A stretch of 33,380 nt of DNA from the NCBI GenBank assembly GCA_014804615.1, contig JAAUZL010000008.1, positions 295,502 through 328,881 on the forward strand. The letters are read 5' to 3'. Shown one piece after another: positions 1,277-12,033 of this stretch (position 1 is its first letter; each line of letters starts with the position of its first letter). Under the pieces are notes generated by a model. The model searched no databases. It was not told where the DNA came from and was given only the letters and a program-made list of their open reading frames with translations. The stretch is from Lachnospiraceae bacterium (GTDB lineage: Bacteria > Bacillota > Clostridia > Lachnospirales > Lachnospiraceae). Made by a program: the position numbers and the translations under genes.

Positions 1277-2023
1277 TCAATTTGAGCCCCCAGTAGATAG
1301 CACTGCAGTCATCTCATTCCAATGGTGAATGTGCAGATAATCAAAATCAATCACTTCTCCCTGATTCCGATAGGTAACAGGATTCACATCATCAGGTTCC
1401 TTCCCTTCATACAACACCGGAAATATCCCGGCTCCATGTGCACCCTTGATATCAGCCCTGATATCATCGCCGCAATACCAAACGGCATCGGCGGGCAGAT
1501 TCGCTTTTCTGAGCGCCGTTTCAAATAACATCCTGTTGGGCTTCCTGATGGCATACTCACTGGACGCCATGATAAACTCAAATTTGTTATTGGGAAGAAG
1601 CCTGTTGATACGATTGGTGAGCGCATCTCCTGACCATCCGATATTGCTGATCACTGCCGTGCGGATTCCAACGTCATTGAGATAATCCAACATCTCCTCC
1701 ACCCCTGGCATAACAGCGCCCGGCGAAGCCGCATTCCACTCAATCTCTTCCAATTCCCTGTAAGAAATGCTGAACTTTAATCCAAGATATTCATAAACCA
1801 GCCTCATAATCTGCCATTCATGAATCTCTATTCCAAGGTTTCTCTGTTCCTGAAACTCTGCAAATACTCTCTGTACTTCAGCATAAATTTGCTCCACCGT
1901 GAGATTCTGCGGATTCTCAACAATATAGGGGTATGCCGCTTCCTCGCAGCGCATGGCATTAAAACCCGGCTCATAGAGTAAAGTGTGTCCATAATCAAAA
2001 ATAATCATTTCTGGTTTCTTCAT
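1277..2023 (-). CDS. HAD-superfamily hydrolase with an atypical motif I
   Basis: A 248-residue HAD fold protein. Motif I reads IFDYGHT (residues 8-14). The nucleophile Asp10 is kept, but the second, acid/base aspartate of DxDxT is glycine, as seen in some non-standard HAD members. Motif II is AVISNIG, motif III is in IRKPN, and motif IV is CGDDIRADIKGA with the metal-binding aspartates. The cap region (about residues 15-100) is helical, subclass I style. I chose ATG 2023 over a start six codons upstream because AGGGGTG is well spaced before it. The substrate is unknown. The gene diverges from the XRE regulator and uses the promoter at 2069-2097. Confidence 0.85.
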   Translation of the reverse strand: MKKPEMIIFDYGHTLLYEPGFNAMRCEEAAYPYIVENPQNLTVEQIYAEVQRVFAEFQEQRNLGIEIHEWQIMRLVYEYLGLKFSISYRELEEIEWNAASPGAVMPGVEEMLDYLNDVGIRTAVISNIGWSGDALTNRINRLLPNNKFEFIMASSEYAIRKPNRMLFETALRKANLPADAVWYCGDDIRADIKGAHGAGIFPVLYEGKEPDDVNPVTYRNQGEVIDFDYLHIHHWNEMTAVLSTGGSN

Positions 2024-2059
2024 ATTCCACACCCCTAACATAATCTGTCCTGTTTCCTA

Positions 2060-2100
2060 CTTGAAATGATTTTAACACAATCTTTTTTTCATCACAAGAT
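2060..2100 (-). promoter_or_regulatory. Promoter of the HAD gene, copy A of a 41-bp repeat
   Basis: The minus strand has TTGTGA (2097-2092), 17 bases, then TAAAAT (2074-2069). The whole 41-base segment recurs at 4954-4994 with 36 identities, including the A7 spacer tract. Each copy faces a minus-strand gene, so the repeat is probably a duplicated promoter module. Confidence 0.6.
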
Positions 2101-2214
2101 AAGCCCTCATGTGTGGACGCCCATGTCTAATAGCAAAAATATGGTTTTTCTCATTTTCTGTCGTGGTCTTTATTCGTGTTATATGATAGCCTGTATGCGA
2201 AAGGAGGAGATGCA

Positions 2215-2901
2215 GTGGATGCGAAAAAAATAGGAAGCTTCCTGAAAACGCTTCGGAAAGAAAAGGGATTGACGCAGGAACAGCTTGCAGAAATTCTCTA
2301 TGTGTCGGGAAGAACAGTTTCCCGATGGGAAACAGGAACAAGTATGCCGGAATTAGGTATCCTTATTCAAATGGCAGAGTTCTATGATGTAGAACTGAAC
2401 GAAATTTTAGATGGTGAAAGGAAAGGTGATATTATGAATCAGGAATTACAGGAAACCTTATATAAAGTTGCAGATTATAATAAACTGGAGAAAGAAAAAG
2501 CAGTAAAAGCCGGAAACCTTGCTTTTGGTTTGACCTTTTTTGTCTGCGCCGCAGCGATTATGATTCAGTTGATTGTTATGGGCACATTGCCGATTGTCCT
2601 AGGCGAAACTGTGACGCTGCTGACCGGCGGGATAGCCTATATCGGCATGATGGTACACAATGGCGTATGGGAAACCGGCACAAGATTTAAAAGCACACCG
2701 TTCAAGGATATTTTGATCAGTGTGGCGTGTGCGTGCGTGTTCACTGCGGCATTAGTCCTCAGCTATATCCGACTTGGAGCAAACACAGTCCAAACAGTGC
2801 GTATCGCAATAATATTTTTTGCAGGAACAGCAGCATTTGGTTTTGTTTTATTAAGAATATTGGCATTTTGCAATCAAAAAAGAAGAGAAAAACTGAAGTA
2901 A
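2215..2901 (+). CDS. XRE-family HTH regulator with a membrane domain
   Basis: A 228-residue protein. Residues 1-60 form a Cro/CI-type helix-turn-helix (LTQEQLAEILYVSGRTVSRW) that ends in the usual LNEILDGE. From about residue 95 onward there are four hydrophobic segments (FGLTFFVCAAAIMIQLIVMG, a glycine-rich pair, ILISVACACVFTAALVLSYI and IAIIFFAGTAAFGFVLLRIL), so it is a membrane-anchored DNA-binding protein. GTG 2215 is chosen because AAGGAGGA lies at 2201-2208; the longer GTG at 2176 has no ribosome site. A TATGAT at about 2182 could be the -10, but no good -35 is visible. Such proteins in Clostridia often sense envelope state. Its target is unknown; the divergent HAD gene is the closest candidate. 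Confidence 0.85.
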   Translation: MDAKKIGSFLKTLRKEKGLTQEQLAEILYVSGRTVSRWETGTSMPELGILIQMAEFYDVELNEILDGERKGDIMNQELQETLYKVADYNKLEKEKAVKAGNLAFGLTFFVCAAAIMIQLIVMGTLPIVLGETVTLLTGGIAYIGMMVHNGVWETGTRFKSTPFKDILISVACACVFTAALVLSYIRLGANTVQTVRIAIIFFAGTAAFGFVLLRILAFCNQKRREKLK

Positions 2902-2908
2902 ACTTCCG

Positions 2909-2967
2909 GAGACGTTGGGCAAGTCCTACGAATGCACCAGCTTCCGTACGGATTCGTCCAACGTCTC
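2909..2967. repeat. Long bulged hairpin across the 3' end of the LRR gene
   Basis: GAGACGTTGG (2909-2918) is the perfect complement of CCAACGTCTC (2958-2967). Inside it, ACGAAT (2928-2933) pairs with ATTCGT (2952-2957), which directly adjoins the outer right arm. The result is 16 pairs with one 9-base bulge. It spans the convergent junction of the XRE and LRR genes and includes the last LRR codons. No T-run follows, so a classical terminator is uncertain; it may act as an RNA end or stability element. Confidence 0.45.
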
Positions 2968-3861
2968 TAAATCGATCGGCACATTGTTGATCTGAATGTC
3001 TGTAAGCTGTGTGAGCTTGCTTAAATCAGGAAGTGTTCTTATATGTTTCAGATCCTGCAGCTTTAATGATTCAAGGTTGACGAGAGACTTGATAAAATCC
3101 AAATTGTCCAGCTTCATAATCCTCCAAAGCTCCAGATTACGCAGACTTATCAAGTCTCCCAGTGCCGTAAGATCGTTATTGCCACACCATAACAGCGCAA
3201 AAGACTCTAAACAAAGTTCCTTCAAAAAATCAAAATTTTCCACCTTTATCCCGCTCAAAGATAAAGACTTTAAACTCGCAATCCGGCTGATACTCTCGAT
3301 GTGCTTCTTTGCCTTTTTACCAAGAAAAAGAGTATGCAGCTTCTTATATTTCGAGAGCCATTCGCAGTCAAACTGTACGGCTTTTCCCATTGTGTCCGCG
3401 TAAAGTATCAGCTCCTCCAAATCTGCGGAAAGGTCTTTGACAAAACCGTAATCCAGACGGTCAAACAGCGTCAGATGTACGCCCTTTAAATTCGGAAGTT
3501 CACACAAATATTCGGGATTGACTGCTTCCTTATTTTTCTCCAAATGCCCGTCAATCCGTATTTTTGATAAATGTGGCATCAGACTGAGCATAGATAAATC
3601 GAACTTCTCATTCCCATATGTGCCAATCCCGAAAATACGAAAATAGAGATCTGGCCGTCTCTCCAAAATCCGGTCCATTTCCCGAAAGGCCCTTTCTGGA
3701 AGATTTTCATCAATCTGTATCCACTTGATCCGATTGTTCTGGGCAATCTCCTCAATCATTTCGGATGTGATATCCTTATATCCGACTTCCTTAAATATGC
3801 CGTTTTCCCATGTTTCTTTTGCTATGTGAATATGATTGGTAAAGTCGATCCACGCTCCCAT
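2926..3861 (-). CDS. Cytoplasmic leucine-rich-repeat protein
   Basis: A 311-residue protein with no signal peptide or membrane segment. From about residue 85 to 300 it shows irregular LRR units (LPNLKGVHLT, LEELILYA, LKSLSLSGI, LRNLELWRI, LESLKLQDL, LTQLTDIQI). The first 80 residues are non-repetitive and begin MGAWIDFTNHIHIAKETWEN. The start ATG has an AAGGGA site. LRR folds bind proteins, and intracellular ones beside unknown genes are sometimes immunity or adaptor proteins, but no partner can be named. It is the last gene of a minus-strand cluster with the unknown 215-residue protein and the Rpn-like fragment. The end of the coding sequence is embedded in a hairpin. Confidence 0.8.
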   Translation of the reverse strand: MGAWIDFTNHIHIAKETWENGIFKEVGYKDITSEMIEEIAQNNRIKWIQIDENLPERAFREMDRILERRPDLYFRIFGIGTYGNEKFDLSMLSLMPHLSKIRIDGHLEKNKEAVNPEYLCELPNLKGVHLTLFDRLDYGFVKDLSADLEELILYADTMGKAVQFDCEWLSKYKKLHTLFLGKKAKKHIESISRIASLKSLSLSGIKVENFDFLKELCLESFALLWCGNNDLTALGDLISLRNLELWRIMKLDNLDFIKSLVNLESLKLQDLKHIRTLPDLSKLTQLTDIQINNVPIDLETLDESVRKLVHS

Positions 3862-3913
3862 ATATTTTCCCTTATCTTAGATGGTTTCTCATATTCCTGC
3901 TGTTCAGAACGTA

Positions 3914-4561
3914 TTATACGCATTTTCCTATCCTACACGGAACCCACAAAACAGGCTCTCCATATCCCTGTATCTGGGCGGAAAATGCCACTGTTTCCTC
4001 AAATGTATTCTCCAACAGCCCGTAGCTGTTAAACTTTGCGCTAGGCAGCATCTCCTGCAAACGGTTGCACAAAAAAGTGTGAAAGTAATCAATATCCCAT
4101 CCTAAAATATCAAACCCCAATATCTCATTTTCATCCGCAACTCCTGATACCAGACAATTTGTGCCTAATCTTTCAGACATCAACTCGTCTTTCAATATAT
4201 CGAAATATTTCTCCCTTGTAGACACGCTTACAAGTATGCAGTTCCCTTTTGAAAAATAGGAATCGTAGAAATGTCGGGCATCCGAAAGGCGTTGGAAACG
4301 TCCGTCTTCGGCAAGTCCTTTTTCTAATAACCCCCCTATTTCTTTTTCCATTTCCAAATTTTTTTCATCACTGAATCCCCATCGTTTTCTATAAGCATCC
4401 CGCTCCTCTTGCCCTATGTAATCATTCTGAAAAAAACAGGTATCCAGTCTGGGATGAATGCCGCCAAAGCATTCGCTGACTGACAACATCGTTCCACTCC
4501 GATTCAGATATTCAGGAACTGCAATCCGTTCGCAAATGTAATAACCAACTATCCTGTACAT
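3914..4561 (-). CDS. Unrecognised cytoplasmic protein, 215 residues
   Basis: I do not recognise the family. The protein begins MYRIVGYYICERIAVPEYLN and has no signal peptide, membrane helix or obvious catalytic motif. It is rich in aromatic residues and acidic helices, and ends with a hydrophobic EPVLWVPCRIGKCV tail. ATG 4561 follows the stop of the upstream Rpn-like fragment by only 3 bases, with GGGAG about 13 bases upstream, so the two are probably translated from one message. The 52-base gap to the LRR gene supports a three-gene transcript from the promoter at 4963-4991. A role as immunity or accessory protein is only a guess from context. Confidence 0.7.
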   Translation of the reverse strand: MYRIVGYYICERIAVPEYLNRSGTMLSVSECFGGIHPRLDTCFFQNDYIGQEERDAYRKRWGFSDEKNLEMEKEIGGLLEKGLAEDGRFQRLSDARHFYDSYFSKGNCILVSVSTREKYFDILKDELMSERLGTNCLVSGVADENEILGFDILGWDIDYFHTFLCNRLQEMLPSAKFNSYGLLENTFEETVAFSAQIQGYGEPVLWVPCRIGKCV

Positions 4562-4564
4562 TGA

Positions 4565-4774
4565 TTAGTTTGCACTCCCTTCTTCCCACAAGGCAATCCG
4601 CTGTTTCGCATCTTCATACTCTTCCACAGATATTTCAAGCCCCTCACAGGCTTCCTGTATATTCATATGGAAATTTTTCATACTTAACTCTACGTTTCTA
4701 ACCAATGTTTTGATTCTTCCCTGTTCTATACCTAATTCTTTTCCACGCTCCACACCAATCTCAAAAATGTTCAT
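4565..4774 (-). CDS. Stand-alone C-terminal tail of an Rpn/PD-(D/E)XK transposase-like nuclease
   Basis: A 69-residue product whose first 30 residues (FEIGVERGKELGIEQGRIKT) match the charged, repetitive linker seen at the end of Rpn-family recombination-promoting nucleases. The rest (ACEGLEISVEEYEDAKQRI) is the small helical tail domain of that family. The PD-(D/E)XK nuclease domain is missing. It may be a decayed Rpn gene. Alternatively it may be a functional short form: Rpn genes in E. coli are reported to encode an internal C-terminal product that restrains the toxic full-length nuclease. ATG 4774 has GGAGG 8 bases upstream, which argues that it is still translated. A GTG two codons upstream is the alternative start. 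Confidence 0.6.
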   Translation of the reverse strand: MNIFEIGVERGKELGIEQGRIKTLVRNVELSMKNFHMNIQEACEGLEISVEEYEDAKQRIALWEEGSAN

Positions 4775-4851
4775 CTCCACAGCCTCCCATCGCCAAAAAA
4801 CTCCTCCCCAAACTTGATGTCACAATTTGTGATATCAAGTTCATTCGGCAT
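4771..4851 (-). CDS. Possible 26-residue small ORF
   Basis: An ORF starting MPNELDITNCDIKFGEEFFG ends with a TGA that overlaps the ATG of the Rpn-like fragment as ATGA, an arrangement typical of coupled genes. Its codons cover the palindrome at 4811-4841. No good ribosome site precedes its ATG, so it could equally be a relic of a deleted 5' gene. Low confidence. Confidence 0.25.
   Translation of the reverse strand: MPNELDITNCDIKFGEEFFGDGRLWR
4811..4841. repeat. 31-base near-perfect palindrome
   Basis: AACTTGATGTCACAA and TTGTGATATCAAGTT are complementary around a single central T, with one mismatch (a G-U pair in RNA). It lies about 120 bases downstream of the -10 of the minus-strand cluster promoter and 37 bases before the Rpn-like start. 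With no loop and no T-run it looks more like an operator or recombinase site than a terminator. Confidence 0.55.
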
Positions 4852-4953
4852 CTGTTTATGTCTCAACTTGAATTTCTAATTTGGTACCCTGCATGGATAC
4901 GGATTTTAGACATAATCCGTTAAGATATCATAGAATCTTAGACTTGTTCTTTG

Positions 4954-4994
4954 CTTGAAGCCATTTTAGCACAATCTTTTTTTCATTACAAGAT
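4954..4994 (-). promoter_or_regulatory. Promoter of the Rpn-like/LRR cluster, copy B of the 41-bp repeat
   Basis: The minus strand has TTGTAA (4991-4986), 17 bases, then TAAAAT (4968-4963). It is 36/41 identical to 2060-2100. Between this promoter and 4851 (about 110 bases) I see no gene, only AT-rich leader. The whole 4852-5096 interval holds this promoter and the divergent marR promoter. Confidence 0.6.
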
Positions 4995-5047
4995 GAACTT
5001 TCAATCGTTGAAAAATGATATTATCAATTAGAGTTTTTAAACTTCTC

Positions 5048-5084
5048 TTGACAATAGTCCTATATGGTACTATTCTATATGGTA
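5048..5084 (+). promoter_or_regulatory. marR promoter with operator-like repeats
   Basis: A perfect TTGACA (5048-5053), a 17-base spacer and TATTCT (5071-5076). The spacer and -10 carry an imperfect palindrome (ATAGT at 5054-5058, ACTAT at 5069-5073, 16 of 20 positions symmetric) and a direct repeat of CTATATGGTA (5060-5069 and 5075-5084). This is a likely autoregulatory MarR site. Confidence 0.7.
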
Positions 5085-5096
5085 AGAGGTGGATAT

Positions 5097-5552
5097 ATGA
5101 TTGACAAAACAGACGGCGGTATCTTAATCACCAGAATCAAACAGCTTCAGGGACGGATATTTGAAAAACTGCTGGACGAGCACGGTATCAGTGAATTCAA
5201 CGGCGCACAGGGACGTATCTTATTTGTTTTGTGGGAAAAAGATGACATCCCGATCAGTGAACTCGCCAGGAAAACCGGACTTGCCAAGACAACACTGACA
5301 AGTATGCTGGACCGCATGGAGCAGCGGAAATTGATTGAACGGATCTATTCTCCCGCTGACCGCAGAACCGTGAAAATACGGCTGACGCAAACGTCGCTCG
5401 GATTTCAGGAAAAGTACAAACAGGTTTCTGACGAAATGAATCAGATTTTCTACAGGGGGTTCAATGATGAGGAGATACTCTCTCTGGAAACAGGTCTTAG
5501 GAAAGTGCTTGCAAATCTTACAGAAAAGGAGAATCACACAAATGGAAATTAG
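5097..5552 (+). CDS. MarR-family transcriptional regulator
   Basis: A 151-residue winged-helix repressor of normal MarR length. The N-terminal dimerisation helix (LITRIKQLQGRIFEKLLDEH) is followed by a recognition region with ISELARKTGLAKTTLTSMLD, then the wing (ERIYSPADRRTVKIRLT) with the diagnostic DRR. The C-terminal helices complete the dimer interface. ATG 5097 is preferred because GAGGTGG is just upstream; the in-frame ATG at 5064 lies inside the promoter. Its 3' end overlaps the next gene by 11 bases, so it almost certainly regulates the small oxidoreductase-like protein encoded there. Confidence 0.92.
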   Translation: MIDKTDGGILITRIKQLQGRIFEKLLDEHGISEFNGAQGRILFVLWEKDDIPISELARKTGLAKTTLTSMLDRMEQRKLIERIYSPADRRTVKIRLTQTSLGFQEKYKQVSDEMNQIFYRGFNDEEILSLETGLRKVLANLTEKENHTNGN

Positions 5553-5976
5553 TCTGATAAAGAAAGGAATACGCGCACTCCGCGAAAACGCACAGGTTGC
5601 CTATGTCGGCTCGGTAAACGGGGAGGGCTTCCCCCAGATCAAGGGAATGCTCGTGTTGGAACACGACAGCATGAAAACACACTACTTCTCCACCAACACC
5701 AGCTCCAAGAGGGTCGCGCAGTTTCTGCAAAATCCCAAAGCGTCCGTATATTATGTGGACGATACCGAGGACCAGTATAAGGGCGCACTGTTTACCGGAA
5801 CTATGGAGGTGTGCACCGACCACGAAACGAAAGCGTTTCTCTGGCGGGAGGGCTTTGAAATGTATTATCCGAAAGGCGTGGACGATGAGGATTACTGCGT
5901 ATACAAGTTTACCGCTGAGACTGTCAATTATTACTATGGTCTGAGCAATGTGACTCTTTCAGCCGATGAACTGTAA
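5542..5976 (+). CDS. Pyridoxamine 5'-phosphate oxidase-family flavin-binding protein
   Basis: A 144-residue split-barrel protein. The opening KGIRALRENAQVAYVGSVNG and GFPQIKGMLVLEHD, then THYFSTNTSSKRVAQFLQNP and ASVYYVD, are the typical strands and FMN-phosphate contacts of the PPOX/general-stress-26-like family. ATG 5542 has AAAGGAGAA and overlaps the marR end by 11 bases, which indicates coupling. These proteins bind FMN, F420 or heme. In marR pairs they often relate to redox or drug stress, but the substrate here is unknown. A strong hairpin terminator follows. Confidence 0.85.
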   Translation: MEISLIKKGIRALRENAQVAYVGSVNGEGFPQIKGMLVLEHDSMKTHYFSTNTSSKRVAQFLQNPKASVYYVDDTEDQYKGALFTGTMEVCTDHETKAFLWREGFEMYYPKGVDDEDYCVYKFTAETVNYYYGLSNVTLSADEL

Positions 5977-5994
5977 TGCAAAAAACGGGGTAAA

Positions 5995-6040
5995 CGTCGA
6001 ATTGCCAGGAATCTCTTCCCGGCAATTCGACGTCATTCCT
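5995..6040. terminator. Bidirectional terminator between PPOX and zinc-ribbon genes
   Basis: CGTCGAATTGCC (5995-6006) pairs perfectly with GGCAATTCGACG (6021-6032) around a 14-base loop. A T-rich stretch follows on the plus side, and on the minus side TTTACCCCGTTTTTT follows, so it can end both convergent transcripts. Confidence 0.8.
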
Positions 6041-6058
6041 CTTTTTGATTTTAAGGAC

Positions 6059-6634
6059 TTAATCCTCGATTTTCCTCCCGCATTCCATGCACATAAACTG
6101 ACCCACCGGCACTTTTGCGCCGCAAATGCATTCTTTCACGGCGGGCGCATGTGCAGTTTGCTGACTGTTTATAATGTCTTCCACGGATTTCCCGCAAACG
6201 CCGCAAAATTTTGCGGTTTTTTCCAACTCTGCGCCACAAGTACAGATCACAGTATCTCTCTCTATGACCTCACCGCAATTAGGACAAAAGCGATCCTGCG
6301 GTTTTAATTTATAGCCGCATACGCATATATTCTTTTTTACGTTTTTTCTCTCCAACTCCTCTTTTTGCTTTTCCAGTTCCTCAATCTCGCCGTTTAAAAC
6401 ATCCATTTTATCTAAATAGGTCTTAATTTCCGCGATCTCAATCCTGTTCTCTTTGGAAAGGTCATATACCTCCATCCCAATAAATCCGTATATTTTGACC
6501 TTTTCATTCATCTTTTCTTCCAAACTTTTTCTGACTGTCTTTAGGTTGCCCCCATTTTCTGACTGCTGCTTGGGAAGTCTGGGAATACTCTCCGGTATTT
6601 TCACCTTTTCCATAAGGCCCATTATGTTCGCCAT
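6059..6634 (-). CDS. Coiled-coil protein with three zinc ribbons
   Basis: A 191-residue soluble protein. Residues about 55-100 form a coiled coil (IEIAEIKTYLDKMDVLNGEI, then EELEKQKEELERK). The C-terminal half carries three treble-clef-like ribbons: CVCGYKL..FCPNCG, CTCGAEL..FCGVCG and CICGAKV..CMECG. Each pairs a CxCG knuckle with a CxxCG knuckle. No signal peptide or membrane segment is present. It is the last gene of the dynamin operon, 16 bases after the membrane-protein gene, and ends at a strong terminator. Zinc ribbons of this type commonly mediate protein contacts; a role as adaptor for the GTPase/membrane pair is inference from position. The short internal motifs do not suggest a nuclease or RNA-polymerase subunit. 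Confidence 0.75.
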   Translation of the reverse strand: MANIMGLMEKVKIPESIPRLPKQQSENGGNLKTVRKSLEEKMNEKVKIYGFIGMEVYDLSKENRIEIAEIKTYLDKMDVLNGEIEELEKQKEELERKNVKKNICVCGYKLKPQDRFCPNCGEVIERDTVICTCGAELEKTAKFCGVCGKSVEDIINSQQTAHAPAVKECICGAKVPVGQFMCMECGRKIED

Positions 6635-6650
6635 CTTTTGTTCTCCTCTC

Positions 6651-7955
6651 TCATCTGTATTTTAATGTGTTCCATTGTTCGCGAAGCGCATTCCACTCAG
6701 CCATTTCATTCCGCTGCTGATTTTGTCGTTCGTAATCTGTTCCCGTAAACAGTTGATTCAACACTTCCATATACTGCCGCTCATATTCGTCCACCGCATT
6801 CAACATAACGGTATCCAGTTTTAAAGAGAGTCCGTTTTCCTGCTCAAAGCGGGACAGTTCTGTCTTTAGGTACTCCCCGCATCTTTTGCAGATCTGATGA
6901 TTGCACCATTGTTTGAGTATTTTAAGATAAGCAATATACAACAGGACAATCACCAACAAAACCAAACCGAGAAACGCGCCCAGACTGACAAGTAACGTGC
7001 GGATAAAGCTGACAACTGACTTTACAATACCTGGGGACGCTTCCTTGATAACCTTTTCCCCAAATTCCTGAGCAATATCCTTCATAACAGCATTATCAGT
7101 AGTCTCTTCGATTCGTTCCGTTTCCTGTCTACTCTGGCTTTGCTTAACGACAGCTCCCGCCATTAGCAAGCATAACAGAACGATCACCGGCATCCATGAC
7201 AAAAGCTTTCTTTTTCGCTCCAGCTTCCTTACCATTCCTTTTATTGCTTCTTTTGTCTTCTGCCCGAAGGAGGTAATATCATTTCCACCAACATCCGCTG
7301 TCTGCGTTTCTTCCAGTACTCTTTGATCAATTCCTAACCTGCGCGCTTCATATTCCATGTAAAACTTTTCGTTTCCAATTCCCTTTCTGTATCCGCCTAT
7401 ACTTTGAAACATACTTTTCATATGATTCAACATATTCGCATAATTGTTACTGATACTTTGCAGGAGTTCTCGAATCATCTCAATAACATCCCGCTCATAT
7501 GTTGTTCCGGACTGTGAGAAAAATTGCAGATACAAATCCTCATTTTTTAGTTCCTCCAAATGGGCTTTCGTATGGCTAATCTCAAATATCTGCGCATACA
7601 TTTTTTTAATCACAGTATTTTTTCTTTCTCCCATGCCGTCCGCAGATACTGTGTTTTCCGCATGGCATCTGCGCGCCATTTTTTCAAGCTGCGCCTTGAT
7701 ATCTTCTGCGGAGACTTCGTTTTCCGCCCTTTCCTGCATGACAGTCGGTGTGATTTTTCCCTCAATACTTTCCAACAACTCCTCCACACTACGACTGACT
7801 GCAGCCCACTCAGCCTCGCCAGATAGCGCCAGCTTCCTGCATTCCTCCATTTCATCCATGATTCGCATAGGGAATTTTTTCTCGCTTGCATACCGCCCTA
7901 ATTTATCAAGCCACTCTGTTGCTTTTCTTTGTCTTTCGTCCATATCTGCGCCCAT
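6651..7955 (-). CDS. Two-pass membrane protein with coiled coils and a CxxC motif (dynamin operon)
   Basis: A 434-residue protein of no family I recognise. Residues 1-245 are helical and highly charged, with candidate coiled coils. A first membrane helix (LLSWMPVIVLLCLLMAGAVV) is near residue 255, followed by a roughly 55-residue outside loop. A second long hydrophobic stretch (LLVSLGAFLGLVLLVIVLLY) is near 325-350. Just after it comes WCNHQICKRCGEYLK, a cysteine cluster that could bind zinc, then a charged helical tail. ATG 7955 has AGGAG six bases upstream. The gene sits 16 bases after the dynamin stop and 16 bases before the zinc-ribbon start, so the three are one transcription unit. A membrane platform for the GTPase is the simplest inference. 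Confidence 0.75.
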   Translation of the reverse strand: MGADMDERQRKATEWLDKLGRYASEKKFPMRIMDEMEECRKLALSGEAEWAAVSRSVEELLESIEGKITPTVMQERAENEVSAEDIKAQLEKMARRCHAENTVSADGMGERKNTVIKKMYAQIFEISHTKAHLEELKNEDLYLQFFSQSGTTYERDVIEMIRELLQSISNNYANMLNHMKSMFQSIGGYRKGIGNEKFYMEYEARRLGIDQRVLEETQTADVGGNDITSFGQKTKEAIKGMVRKLERKRKLLSWMPVIVLLCLLMAGAVVKQSQSRQETERIEETTDNAVMKDIAQEFGEKVIKEASPGIVKSVVSFIRTLLVSLGAFLGLVLLVIVLLYIAYLKILKQWCNHQICKRCGEYLKTELSRFEQENGLSLKLDTVMLNAVDEYERQYMEVLNQLFTGTDYERQNQQRNEMAEWNALREQWNTLKYR

Positions 7956-7971
7956 AGTCTTCTCCTGTGTT

Positions 7972-9720
7972 TTATATATTTTCTATTTTTAACAGCAATT
8001 CTTCCGCTTCCTGCATTTTCTGTTCCAACAACGGAATTTTTCTCTCATCAATATTTACCGACATACGAAATTCCGCAAAACAATTGTCCACAGAAGTAAG
8101 CTCATTCTCAAAAATTGTGGTAATCTGACTCGTGACTTGTTCAATCATCTCCACTCTGGTATGATTTACCTCCTCCTTGAATTGCTCTATACATTTTTGG
8201 GTCGTCTCCTCCATCTGGTTTGCCGCAAGTGGTGTATATAAATCTTTCGCCAATTTCCTAAGCGCAATGGCCCCAACAATCGTCCCAATTGCAAGCAGGC
8301 ATACCCCAGCAACCGATCCAGCCGTTGCACCCAAAACTGTCGCAAAATATAATCCTACTGCTCCTCCCCCTACCGTTGAAATGGTCTTGCTGTTCCGGAT
8401 TTTATTATCATATTTTTTCCGCTCATTCCAGATCTGCATGAAAAGCGTCTCCGAGGCATCCCGCAGCGTTCGGTATAATTCCCCTGTGGAAACGACCATC
8501 TCTCTCGTCTCATCAGACATCTGTCTGCGGCTGCTGGAAAGCGATCCATAGAACTTATCGTTTAACGCAAGGATGTTTTCTCTGGTGTTAAAATATCCCG
8601 TTGCCTCATTAAAAACAATTTCCAAGTCATGCAAACAGCTTTTAATGGCTTCAATGGTCTTTCGATTGATCGAATCGCTCATCATGGTTCTGTAATTCTC
8701 GTTAACCATATTTAGATACGCTTCAAAGTCTTCCCTTTTTTGAAATCGTTCCTTTATTTTATAAGGATCTAATTTGGAAATAATCTCCCGCTCATAATTA
8801 TCAATATCCTTGTTGATTTCCGCCGCTACTTTACTGATAAAACCGTCCAGAAATTTTTTATGATTCAGCACATATTCATCCAGCGATTGATTTATTTTTT
8901 GCAAAATCTGATAGTCTGCCTCATACTGCTGTCTTCTCAAAGAAAACGAATCCTTCAGCTGAACAATGATTTCCTTCATCTGTGCTACGTTTTCCATCTG
9001 TTTGTTCAATATCGGATTTTTTCCAACTACATTGTCTCTGATATAGGCGCGCACATCATCAATGGCTGTCACTCCCTGTCCGTTGCCGTCCATTTTCATA
9101 CTGACGGAAAAAATAGGGGCAGATATTCCGCTGTCCTGCATATACCTTTTCACTTTTTCTATATTAGTCTGCAGAGCCTCCTGAGAAAGCAGATCGCATT
9201 TTGTGAGAAAAAATATCATTCTTTTCTGTGGGCATCCTTCAAGCACATCCCACAGTCTTGGGCTTCTGATATTTTCCGCACTGAAAACAACAAATACCGC
9301 ACTGCTTCTCTCTATCTGCTCCTTTACCTTTATCTTAGCTTCCGTCGAAAATTGATCGATTCCTTTGGTATCAACAATTGAAATTCCTCTCATGTTATCC
9401 GTTGTTACAAACTTCTTTTGCATTCCACCCGACAAAGGGGTAAGTAGTTCCTGTTCACCCCAGCGATATTCACACATCTCTCCTGCAAAATGATCCGAAA
9501 ATGAAGCCATATCCTGAAACACCGCATTTAAAAGAGTAGTTTTCCCTGCACCCTCATCTCCTAAAATCAGATAGGTTGTGGTATCTGCCATTCTTTTCAG
9601 ATTGTTTTTTACCATTTCCTTTTCTTCTGTCGCATCGCTATCCTGTAACAAAATTTTAAATTCTTCAAATGTTTGATTCAGAATCATATGCTCATTTTTT
9701 TCACATAGTATATTTTGCAT
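7972..9720 (-). CDS. Dynamin-like GTPase
   Basis: A 582-residue large GTPase. G1 is GDEGAGKTT (54-62), G3 is DTKG (117-120) and G4 is TKCD (173-176). A long helical stalk follows. Residues about 450-487 are a glycine/alanine-rich hydrophobic hairpin (VGGGAVGLYFATVLGATAGS and onward) where bacterial dynamin-like proteins carry their membrane paddle. The last 90 residues return as helices. This layout fits bacterial dynamin-like proteins, which bind and remodel membranes on GTP hydrolysis and have been linked to membrane repair, toxin secretion and phage tolerance. The start ATG has CGGAGGA. The gene leads a three-gene operon transcribed away from a small HTH gene. The organism-level role is unknown. 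Confidence 0.88.
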   Translation of the reverse strand: MQNILCEKNEHMILNQTFEEFKILLQDSDATEEKEMVKNNLKRMADTTTYLILGDEGAGKTTLLNAVFQDMASFSDHFAGEMCEYRWGEQELLTPLSGGMQKKFVTTDNMRGISIVDTKGIDQFSTEAKIKVKEQIERSSAVFVVFSAENIRSPRLWDVLEGCPQKRMIFFLTKCDLLSQEALQTNIEKVKRYMQDSGISAPIFSVSMKMDGNGQGVTAIDDVRAYIRDNVVGKNPILNKQMENVAQMKEIIVQLKDSFSLRRQQYEADYQILQKINQSLDEYVLNHKKFLDGFISKVAAEINKDIDNYEREIISKLDPYKIKERFQKREDFEAYLNMVNENYRTMMSDSINRKTIEAIKSCLHDLEIVFNEATGYFNTRENILALNDKFYGSLSSSRRQMSDETREMVVSTGELYRTLRDASETLFMQIWNERKKYDNKIRNSKTISTVGGGAVGLYFATVLGATAGSVAGVCLLAIGTIVGAIALRKLAKDLYTPLAANQMEETTQKCIEQFKEEVNHTRVEMIEQVTSQITTIFENELTSVDNCFAEFRMSVNIDERKIPLLEQKMQEAEELLLKIENI

Positions 9721-9749
9721 GGTTATCCTCCGGATAAAAAATCAAATAT

Positions 9750-9778
9750 ATTATAGCCCGATATCGGGCATTACGCAA
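9750..9778 (-). promoter_or_regulatory. Dynamin operon promoter with a perfect palindrome in its spacer
   Basis: On the minus strand TTGCGT (9778-9773), a 17-base spacer and TATAAT (9755-9750) form a strong promoter. GCCCGATATCGGGC (9756-9769) is a perfect 14-base palindrome and fills the spacer right up to the -10 box. A protein bound there would block RNA polymerase. The divergent HTH gene is the obvious candidate regulator; this is inference. Confidence 0.8.
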
Positions 9779-9862
9779 GACTTTTCTGCACTTTATCCTT
9801 ATATCATACCTTCAACAAACAGCGTGTCTGACAAGGCACAGACAGAAAAGCGGAGGATGGAC

Positions 9863-10075
9863 ATGATTATTTATACAAAGCTTTGGAAAACATTAAAAGA
9901 TCGAAACATTTCACAATACAAACTGATCAATACCTATGGGATCAGTACCGGTCAGCTCGACCGGTTAAGAAAGAACGAAAGCGTAAGCACAAATACGCTG
10001 GATAAGTTATGCGATGTTCTGGACTGTACACTGTATGATATTGCTGAATATATAAAAGGGCCGGAAACAAATTAA
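9863..10075 (+). CDS. Small Cro/CI-type HTH regulator, divergent from the dynamin operon
   Basis: A 70-residue protein consisting of one helix-turn-helix domain (DRNISQYKLINTYGISTGQL) and a short tail ending DVLDCTLYDIAEYI. It resembles the compact YozG-like regulators of Bacillota. ATG 9863 is preceded by CGGAGG with 6-base spacing; an in-frame ATG two codons earlier is too close to that site, and the longer upstream frame is not supported. Its own promoter is not clear. It ends inside a strong terminator hairpin. It probably controls the dynamin operon from the palindrome at 9756-9769. Confidence 0.85.
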   Translation: MIIYTKLWKTLKDRNISQYKLINTYGISTGQLDRLRKNESVSTNTLDKLCDVLDCTLYDIAEYIKGPETN

Positions 10076-10092
10076 TTCTGTTTCCGGCCCTT
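10056..10092. terminator. Terminator of the HTH gene, convergent with pyrC
   Basis: AAGGGCCGGAAACA (10056-10069) pairs perfectly over 14 bases with TGTTTCCGGCCCTT (10079-10092). The HTH stop codon lies in the loop. A T-rich tail follows on the plus strand. It may also serve pyrC from the other side. Confidence 0.85.
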
Positions 10093-10141
10093 CTCATTTC
10101 CTCTGCAAGTGTCACATTTCTGCTTTCGCTTAAAGAATATT

Positions 10142-11425
10142 TCAGTTGCGGTACACAATCTTTCCCCCGCAGATCGTATAGCTGACCACCCCCGGCATCG
10201 TTTCACCAACGAAAGGCGAGTTTGTGGCTTTCGACGCGAAATCCTTCACCACCCACTCTTTCTTCGGATCAAAAACCACCAGATCGGCCGGGCCGCCCTC
10301 TGCCAAATACCCGGCATCCAGATGATACAGTTTCGCCGGAGCAAGACTCATTTTCCCGATCAGCTCCATCAGCGAGAGATATCCCTTGTTCACCAGTTCT
10401 CTGAGTCCCAGCGAAAGGGCAGTCTCCAACCCGATAATGCCGCTTGGCGCCTCAGTGATCGGTTTTGCTTTCTCTTCCGCGCTGTGAGGCGCATGATCCG
10501 TAGCGATCATGTCAATCGTGCCATCCCGCAGCCCCTCTATAATTGCCAGCCGATCCGCCTCTTCTCTGAGCGGCGGATTCATCTTTGCCATCGTGCCATA
10601 TTGAATTGCCGCCTCTTCCGTCAGAGTAAAATGATGGGGGGTTGCCTCCGCGTAAATATGACGGCTCTTTTTCTTCGCCTGCCGCACCAACTCCACGGCC
10701 TCTTTCGTGCTGATATGCTGAATAGACAGGTCAGCTTCCTCCTCCAACGCAATACGCAGATCCCGCTCTACCATAGAGATCTCTGCCTCTCTGGGAGAAC
10801 CGCCGATTCCATAATGGGCTGCCGCTTTACCCGCATTGACACCGTTGTTAGTGATCAGCGATGGATTCTCCTCGTGAAGACTGACCGGTTTGCCGCACTT
10901 TGCCGCCGTTTGCAGAGCCTTCCGCAACAGCGCCTCATCCATAAGCGGTATGCCATCGTCAGTAAACCCTGCCGCCCCCAGCCGGCTCAGTCTCTTCATG
11001 TCCGTCAGCTCTTTTCCCTGGAGGCCCTTGGTCACGTTAGCACAGGTATCAATACGGATCCCTGTCTCTTTTCCCTTATCCAGCACATAGGCAAGCGTCT
11101 CCGGATTATCCACCGCCGGTTTTGTGTTAGCCATCAAAACTACCGAGGTGAAACCGCCCTTCGCCGCCGCGGCCGCCCCCGTATGTATGTCTTCCTTGTG
11201 GGTAAAACCAGGATCCCGGAAATGGACATGCACATCCACCAGTCCTGGCGTTACTGTTTGACCGTGCAAGTCAATCTCTTTGGCAATGCCAAGTGTCTCA
11301 TCCATCGGAGTCCCCTGTGGCACGATTCGACTGATTATCCCATGCTCCGTATCGATTAGAATGTCCCGGTATCCTTCCGCCCCCGATGCGGGGTCTATCA
11401 TATAACCATTTTTTAAATACAACAT
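10142..11425 (-). CDS. pyrC: Dihydroorotase
   Basis: Closes carbamoyl-aspartate to dihydroorotate, the step before PyrD/PyrK. It has 427 residues, normal for the class I enzyme. The metal site is visible as DVHVHFRDPG near residue 61, a histidine in VSLHEENPS, ISTKEAVELV and the HAEATPHHF-like stretch (YAEATPHHFTLTE), and the catalytic IATDHAPHS. An AAGGAAGGA site precedes the ATG. No clear promoter is seen in the 63 bases upstream, so it may be read from the lipoprotein gene. It is separated from pyrKD by about 9 kb of accessory genes in the same orientation. Confidence 0.96.
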   Translation of the reverse strand: MLYLKNGYMIDPASGAEGYRDILIDTEHGIISRIVPQGTPMDETLGIAKEIDLHGQTVTPGLVDVHVHFRDPGFTHKEDIHTGAAAAAKGGFTSVVLMANTKPAVDNPETLAYVLDKGKETGIRIDTCANVTKGLQGKELTDMKRLSRLGAAGFTDDGIPLMDEALLRKALQTAAKCGKPVSLHEENPSLITNNGVNAGKAAAHYGIGGSPREAEISMVERDLRIALEEEADLSIQHISTKEAVELVRQAKKKSRHIYAEATPHHFTLTEEAAIQYGTMAKMNPPLREEADRLAIIEGLRDGTIDMIATDHAPHSAEEKAKPITEAPSGIIGLETALSLGLRELVNKGYLSLMELIGKMSLAPAKLYHLDAGYLAEGGPADLVVFDPKKEWVVKDFASKATNSPFVGETMPGVVSYTICGGKIVYRN

Positions 11426-11488
11426 TCTTTTATCCTTCCTTGTACATTATCTCTGTATCATATCGGGGATATTCACAACACCATTTGT

Positions 11489-11917
11489 CTACTCGAACAC
11501 CACCGGTTTCTCCAAAAATTCCATCTTCACCACCACATAGGGATAGCTTGCCACCTGCTTACTCTTTTCCTCCGGGGAGGGACCGATCAGATTCGTGTCA
11601 ATGTAAATGGCATTCGCCGTCTCATACAGACCGTTGACCGCAATACTGTAGCCGCCCGTCTGCTGTGTCCCATATCCCACACAAATATAGAGAAAGCCCT
11701 GGTCCTCAAATGTCAGTTTAAAGGGATCCTCCTTGCGCTCCTCAATCTTTAAAAGAAGTTCCTGCGGTATATTGTCCTCCGCTATCACCGTGTATTCCAA
11801 ATCCCTGATCTTCTCCAGGGGATCCTGCTTCTGCCCGCAGGCATACACCGCCAAGCATAGCAGACAGACCAGACATGCGCTTAAAAATCTCCTCCGATAC
11901 TCATATATTCTGTTCAT
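11489..11917 (-). CDS. PrcB-like lipoprotein
   Basis: A 142-residue protein with a signal peptide (FLSACLVCLLCLAVYACGQ) ending in a lipobox-like VYAC, so probably lipid-anchored outside the membrane. The C-terminal part (GFLYICVGYGTQQTGGYSIA, later YPYVVVKME) matches the PrcB C-terminal domain, whose signature is a glycine-rich TGGYSI strand followed by a final beta hairpin. PrcB is a protease-complex subunit in some bacteria; in Clostridia these are mostly uncharacterised lipoproteins. GGAGGATAT precedes the ATG. No partner protease is nearby. Tyr in the lipobox is unusual, which slightly weakens the lipoprotein call. Confidence 0.7.
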   Translation of the reverse strand: MNRIYEYRRRFLSACLVCLLCLAVYACGQKQDPLEKIRDLEYTVIAEDNIPQELLLKIEERKEDPFKLTFEDQGFLYICVGYGTQQTGGYSIAVNGLYETANAIYIDTNLIGPSPEEKSKQVASYPYVVVKMEFLEKPVVFE

Positions 11918-11965
11918 ATATCCTCCACATAGTTCTCTTACTATCTAATTTATTATGTGAAGGCA

Positions 11966-11995
11966 TTGTCTATTCCTGTTGGATGGTGATATAAT
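11966..11995 (+). promoter_or_regulatory. Promoter of plsC
   Basis: TTGTCT (11966-11971), an 18-base spacer and a perfect TATAAT (11990-11995), followed by a short leader to the ATG at 12034. Confidence 0.7.
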
Positions 11996-12033
11996 AGTCG
12001 CAAAAGCAAAACAACTACAGAAGGGGTTCCCTC

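Follow-up and report, generated by a model that had tools for sequence, protein, structure and literature searches.

Our study identified a three-gene operon that may, at slightly less than even confidence, be an accessory and derepressible dynamin pair, formed by a GTPase and a membrane-anchored partner and accompanied by a zinc-ribbon adaptor, whose function we infer. The operon is located in the window, that is, the whole stretch of 33,380 nucleotides that was analyzed, which belongs to a 3.63 Mb Lachnospiraceae genome (G000) assembled in 29 contigs. With the same degree of tentativeness, we propose that it could encode a heterotypic machine: the partner would be headless and permanently anchored by a transmembrane hairpin that derives from its paddle; a single GTPase would drive a scaffold of two trunk types, together with the zinc adaptor and a repressor-operator switch of its own. 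The features of the locus, in coordinates of the window, are the following.

7972..9720, minus strand: dynamin-like GTPase, 582 aa (from the ORF, the alignment and the predicted fold)
6651..7955, minus strand: two-pass membrane protein, 434 aa, probably a dynamin trunk that lacks a G domain and carries a transmembrane hairpin instead of the paddle
6059..6634, minus strand: zinc protein, 191 aa, with a short N-terminal segment, a coiled coil and three zinc ribbons
9863..10075, plus strand: divergent HTH_26 (Cro/CI-type) protein, 70 aa, a probable repressor
9756..9769: perfect palindrome GCCCGATATCGGGC, a putative operator that occupies most of the promoter spacer and has a single genomic copy
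9750..9778, minus strand: proposed operon promoter, TTGCGT, 17-base spacer, TATAAT; the first hexamer is poor
5994..6035: hairpin terminator 3' of the zinc gene, stable on both strands
10055..10100: hairpin terminator 3' of the HTH gene, stable on both strands
5977..10141: entire insert between the PNPOx-like and pyrC-like genes, which are neighbors in 7 relatives

The three genes follow one another in series with gaps of 16 bases, and their identity, strand and spacing agree with the first-pass annotation of this DNA. That annotation had also described a small divergent HTH gene, confirmed here as Pfam HTH_26 (E 3.7e-18), and strong terminators on both sides, which correspond to hairpins of -25 to -33 kcal/mol (z -8 to -9) at the two ends of the operon; these flanking hairpins are absent from the output of a consensus terminator scan. 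As to the AT-richer block in which it placed the operon, the GC content here (39-43%) is lower than that of positions 10001-11000 (53%), but positions 2001-5000 are just as AT-rich. An Rfam search of positions 4500-12000 returned no regulatory RNA match, and no integrase or transposase gene was seen inside the insert, where all four genes are assigned. Elsewhere in the window, the gene at 2926-3861 presents weak leucine-rich-repeat matches, under the Pfam cut-offs.

We identified ten complete operons, including that of the window, and the three genes lie together and in the same order in all of them. Six relatives were obtained from a GTPase scan of genome contigs, and profile searches added three further operons, in G253 (L011), G318 (L022) and G305 (L023). 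The relatives are labelled Lachnospiraceae, with one labelled only 'Bacterium 0.1xD8-71'. When 60 genomes of the genus were searched, the GTPase profile gave 8 strong and 2 short matches, the membrane profile gave 10, and the zinc profile gave 8 full-length matches plus 2 partial ribbon matches in other genomes; the full set is intact in the identical 8 genomes. The first-pass annotation had suggested asking whether the three genes co-occur, and since they do so in 10/10 operons and in the same 8/60 genomes, they are not genes that are rarely found together. The 2 short GTPase matches (G332 and G304) are membrane proteins that carry an N-terminal piece of GTPase trunk helix (residues 266-316), with neither a G domain nor a zinc gene. 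Beyond the genus, the cassette is very rare. Among the scored candidates, the GTPase search found only the window's own genome in 200 family genomes and in 391 class genomes, and its own genome plus G253 in another search of 299 family genomes; in 299 phylum genomes it found its own genome plus one match (profile positions 83-200 in a 466-residue frame) that was taken as an ordinary GTPase. These counts are lower bounds, given that scoring was confined to the 3-6 top candidates of each genome.

The operons occupy different chromosomal sites. The junction between pyrC and the PNPOx gene is common to the window and L002, and L003, L004 and L005 have one further site in common; the neighbors, as read from ORFs, are different for each of L006, L007, L011 and L022, and the contig of L023 is too short for this comparison. 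A search for pyrC in the 60 genus genomes gave 57 matches in 56 of them, and 30 of these were taken as loci. Apart from the window, one of the 29 pyrC loci carries the operon (L084, in the genome of L002). In seven (L065, L066, L067, L069, L071, L080 and L085) pyrC adjoins the PNPOx gene at a distance of 3-114 bases without the operon, which constitutes an empty orthologous site; the junction sequences of five of these were viewed. The remaining 21 have no adjacent PNPOx gene within the flank examined. Carriage by phages or plasmids is unsupported: no relative was found in viral contigs with the GTPase and zinc profiles, no match in plasmids with the GTPase protein and the cassette DNA, and none in phages with the GTPase and membrane protein. 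With a size of about 4.1 kb, a palindrome that is single in each genome and clean empty sites, the cassette should be transferable to a laboratory host, where membrane and phage protection can be tested.

The product of 7972-9720 is, on the predicted model, a bacterial dynamin-like GTPase, since its best fold matches are bacterial dynamins. Its layout comprises a G domain (about 48-235), trunk helices (236-450 and 477-581) and a hydrophobic, Gly-rich paddle (about 446-490), and in the model the helices and the hydrophobic stretch are arranged in dynamin order. All 13 Foldseek matches of the predicted structure at E <= 0.001 are dynamins. The Pfam Dynamin_N family matches five of the ten GTPases at E <= 0.01, and its match to that of the window (20.2 bits) is under the 27-bit cut-off; for this reason, the name dynamin is based on the predicted fold, with weak additional support from the LeoBC profile. 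The latter matches the trunk part of the window GTPase (225-574, 40 bits) and 10/10 GTPases at E <= 0.01 (best 1.1e-14), but it also matches ordinary GTPases, in all 150 genomes tried. Most of the matches in that search were ordinary GTPases, and four loci with long matches were inspected. The PDB sequence search with the GTPase profile returned generic GTPases only, and that with P0001 nothing useful.

The motifs G1 (P-loop GDEGAGKT), G3 (DTKG) and G4 of the TKxD type (TKCD) are all present in the GTPase of the window. It could be a signalling protein instead of a remodeller, controlling the membrane protein by direct contact as E. coli RdcA/RdcB does, in which case the zinc protein would be the effector. 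There is a known case of a membrane enzyme activated by a dynamin-like GTPase together with a small partner, and the P-loop Lys is dispensable in RdcA (PMC6510439); one member of our set, L011, has GRT for GKT in its P-loop. We nevertheless judge this alternative decidedly unlikely: GK[ST] is maintained in the other nine P-loops, the hydrophobic paddle is kept in 10/10 GTPases whereas RdcA is described as soluble, and the operon contains no enzyme. The TKxD motif is likewise present in 9/10, with NKTD in L011. This divergent GTPase (L011:7650-9392), which also has a DVGG motif, is found in an operon of unchanged order. In L004:7989-9968 and L005:7989-9911 the paddle is longer by about 60-80 Gly/Ala-rich residues, with Gly/Ala/Thr repeats in L004.

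The membrane protein has hydrophobic segments at residues 252-270 and 321-339. It is likely, although not proven, that this protein corresponds to a dynamin trunk devoid of a G domain in which a transmembrane hairpin replaces the paddle, as suggested by profile alignment and a comparison of folds; this probable headless partner is the new point, missed by the first-pass annotation. The initial profile comparison between the membrane family and the GTPase matched only the GTPase helix fused in L024 and L025, so it was rerun without those two rows. In hhalign, the resulting profile aligns with the GTPase trunk at a score of 35.6 and a probability of 24%, above 300/300 shuffles and the reversed trunk, and the alignment fails in global mode. 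The protein might instead be an unrelated helical membrane effector, perhaps pore-like, that is gated by the GTPase and the zinc protein in an abortive, membrane-killing module. Three observations lead us to give this explanation a low probability. First, dynamin stalks rank higher in the fold-comparison lists. Second, the alignment with the GTPase trunk exceeds that of every shuffle. Third, the membrane protein persists alone as a fusion in two genomes, which is unexpected for a toxin without its control. The solitary proteins of L024:8589-10220 (minus strand) and L025:4258-5703 (plus strand), from two related genomes, carry an N-terminal fragment of GTPase trunk helix and lack a GTPase or zinc gene.

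Searches of the membrane family against Pfam and padloc gave stray single or double matches only; the membrane proteins of the operons matched none of the padloc Leo families, and the PDB sequence search gave one designed protein (E 0.78). The CKRCG cluster, which the first-pass annotation had placed just inside the second helix, is rejected as a conserved zinc site: C351 and C359 are kept in 8/10 operons of the alignment, and the middle Cys (C356) is Cys in 4/10 only.

In the zinc protein all 12 cysteines, distributed in three ribbons, are invariant in the ten operons; even L011 preserves them together with the last ribbon (CICGAK...GQFMC.ECGR). Its N-terminal segment, with a hydrophobic moment of 0.49-0.61, precedes the coiled coil and the ribbons, and a PDB sequence search with the family gave one small zinc-finger protein (E 0.0031). 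Zinc ribbons are also contained in published membrane-stress operons (PMC11237479). Given these and the zinc-ribbon genes of the unrelated dynamin clusters L060 and L061, a zinc-ribbon partner may be a recurring theme. Downstream of two operons there is an extra small zinc-ribbon gene, L022:13091-13465 (DUF2628 and Zn_Ribbon_1) and L002:11614-12000 (similar by eye).

The divergent HTH gene, best read as 70 residues starting at 9863, probably encodes the repressor of the operon, and the palindrome is its probable operator, as far as sequence arrangement can tell. In the five operons of the HTH_26 type (window and L002-L005), the perfect palindrome takes up most of the 17 bases that separate TTGCGT from TATAAT or TATACT, and each of these five genomes has a single copy. 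It is absent from six other genomes, two of which (G340 and G318) have the operon with a different HTH gene. A consensus promoter scan performed no better than shuffles, and the proposed promoter, with its poor -35 box, was not among its predictions. The remaining divergent genes are of the HTH_3 type in L006 and L023, with a weaker HTH_3 match in L022 and a resemblance by eye of L007 to L006; no divergent HTH gene was seen in L011. An HTH gene is thus kept in 9/10 operons, with a type that varies among them.

Taken as a mechanism, our preferred reading would proceed as follows. The HTH protein, acting at the palindrome, would keep the operon silent until some envelope or phage signal lifts the repression. 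The membrane protein, a trunk that would have lost its G domain, would be anchored in the cytoplasmic membrane by the hairpin at the place of the paddle; the GTPase would pair with it through the trunk helices and insert its Gly-rich paddle, and GTP-dependent contacts of the GTPase would cluster, bend, fuse or stabilize the membrane. The zinc-ribbon coiled-coil protein could serve in the cytosol as an adaptor or sensor, connecting the pair with a target. Membrane protection or delayed lysis would be the most likely result, as described for B. subtilis DynA (PMC8844932). We infer this model of a repressed, inducible GTPase with an anchored trunk from the published split of LeoABC and the behavior of DynA.

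The first-pass annotation had guessed at a response to damage, phage or toxins, and this remains a guess. It had also proposed asking whether the genes lie near defense genes, and they do so at two of eight loci. In a padloc scan of 91 flanking ORFs from 8 relative loci (the window and L023 are not among them), in which the best 25 of 39 families were considered and ten proteins were traced, the defense neighbors were type I methyltransferase and specificity pieces next to L005 (5633-7503) and, next to L004, a PDC-S01 candidate divided between two ORFs. Among the matches listed, 6/8 loci have no traced defense neighbor: the mad3 matches traced in L007, L011 and L022 are ABC ATPases, and the mad2 match of L007 is a small methyltransferase-like protein. 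PDC-S03 and PDC-S09 matches also appear among the flanking ORFs. A phage-defense system proper, similar to Eleos or Dynamins, would agree with these restriction pieces and the PDC-S01 candidate, with the patchy presence in 8/60 genus genomes and the empty sites, and with the LeoBC matches. We consider it unlikely, as the operon has no second full dynamin gene, most loci show no such neighbor, the LeoBC profile is shared by ordinary GTPases, and phages, plasmids and viral contigs yielded no relative. The notion of a self-contained, controlled dynamin module is sustained by gene order, shared genomes, the promoter palindrome and the empty sites; its link to defense is weak, and a conserved CKRCG metal site is unsupported.

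The pairing of bacterial dynamins has yet to be explained. Should the partner indeed be headless, a natural pair with such a member would separate trunk assembly from GTP hydrolysis, and would represent, in bacteria, the equivalent of the tip by which mitofusins and OPA1 are permanently anchored.

No description of such an operon turned up in the literature, searched mostly at the level of titles and abstract openings. Compared with Cj-DLP1/2, Nostoc BDLP1 and IniA, our operon has in common the operon context, the dynamin-like GTPase fold and the position of the paddle and, if the partner is headless, two trunk-type proteins side by side. In published pairs, however, both members have a G domain (PMC6104087), whereas here the second one lacks it and would be fixed by the predicted transmembrane hairpin, and the three-zinc-ribbon and HTH genes are added. 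LeoABC of ETEC, in which one dynamin member is split into two genes (PMC4159319), also departs from the plain pair, and the LeoBC profile matches our GTPase trunk; unlike LeoABC and Eleos (LeoA-LeoBC), each of the ten operons has one GTPase gene and no LeoA-type second dynamin. True LeoA-LeoBC-like pairs do exist in the family (L062 and L063), where one GTPase of about 700 aa adjoins another of about 570 aa and the ORFs listed include no zinc gene. DynA, which clusters at the membrane, delays phage lysis and requires the lysines of its P-loops (PMC8844932), resembles our operon in the proposed role of membrane protection or delayed phage lysis, but it consists of two fused dynamins (PMC6104087) and not of one GTPase of 582 aa with one G domain and separate partners. 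The Lachnospiraceae clusters L060:2432-10325 and L061:3892-11084 also include a zinc-ribbon gene among their dynamins; they differ in having three long GTPases (the one scanned, L060 8529-10325, matches Dynamin_N at E 4.8e-28), an M48 peptidase and a different, double zinc-ribbon protein. Finally, mitofusin and OPA1 are permanently attached to the membrane at the trunk tip (PMC6104087), and a similar attachment may be present in our membrane protein, with the difference that those anchored dynamins retain their own G domain.
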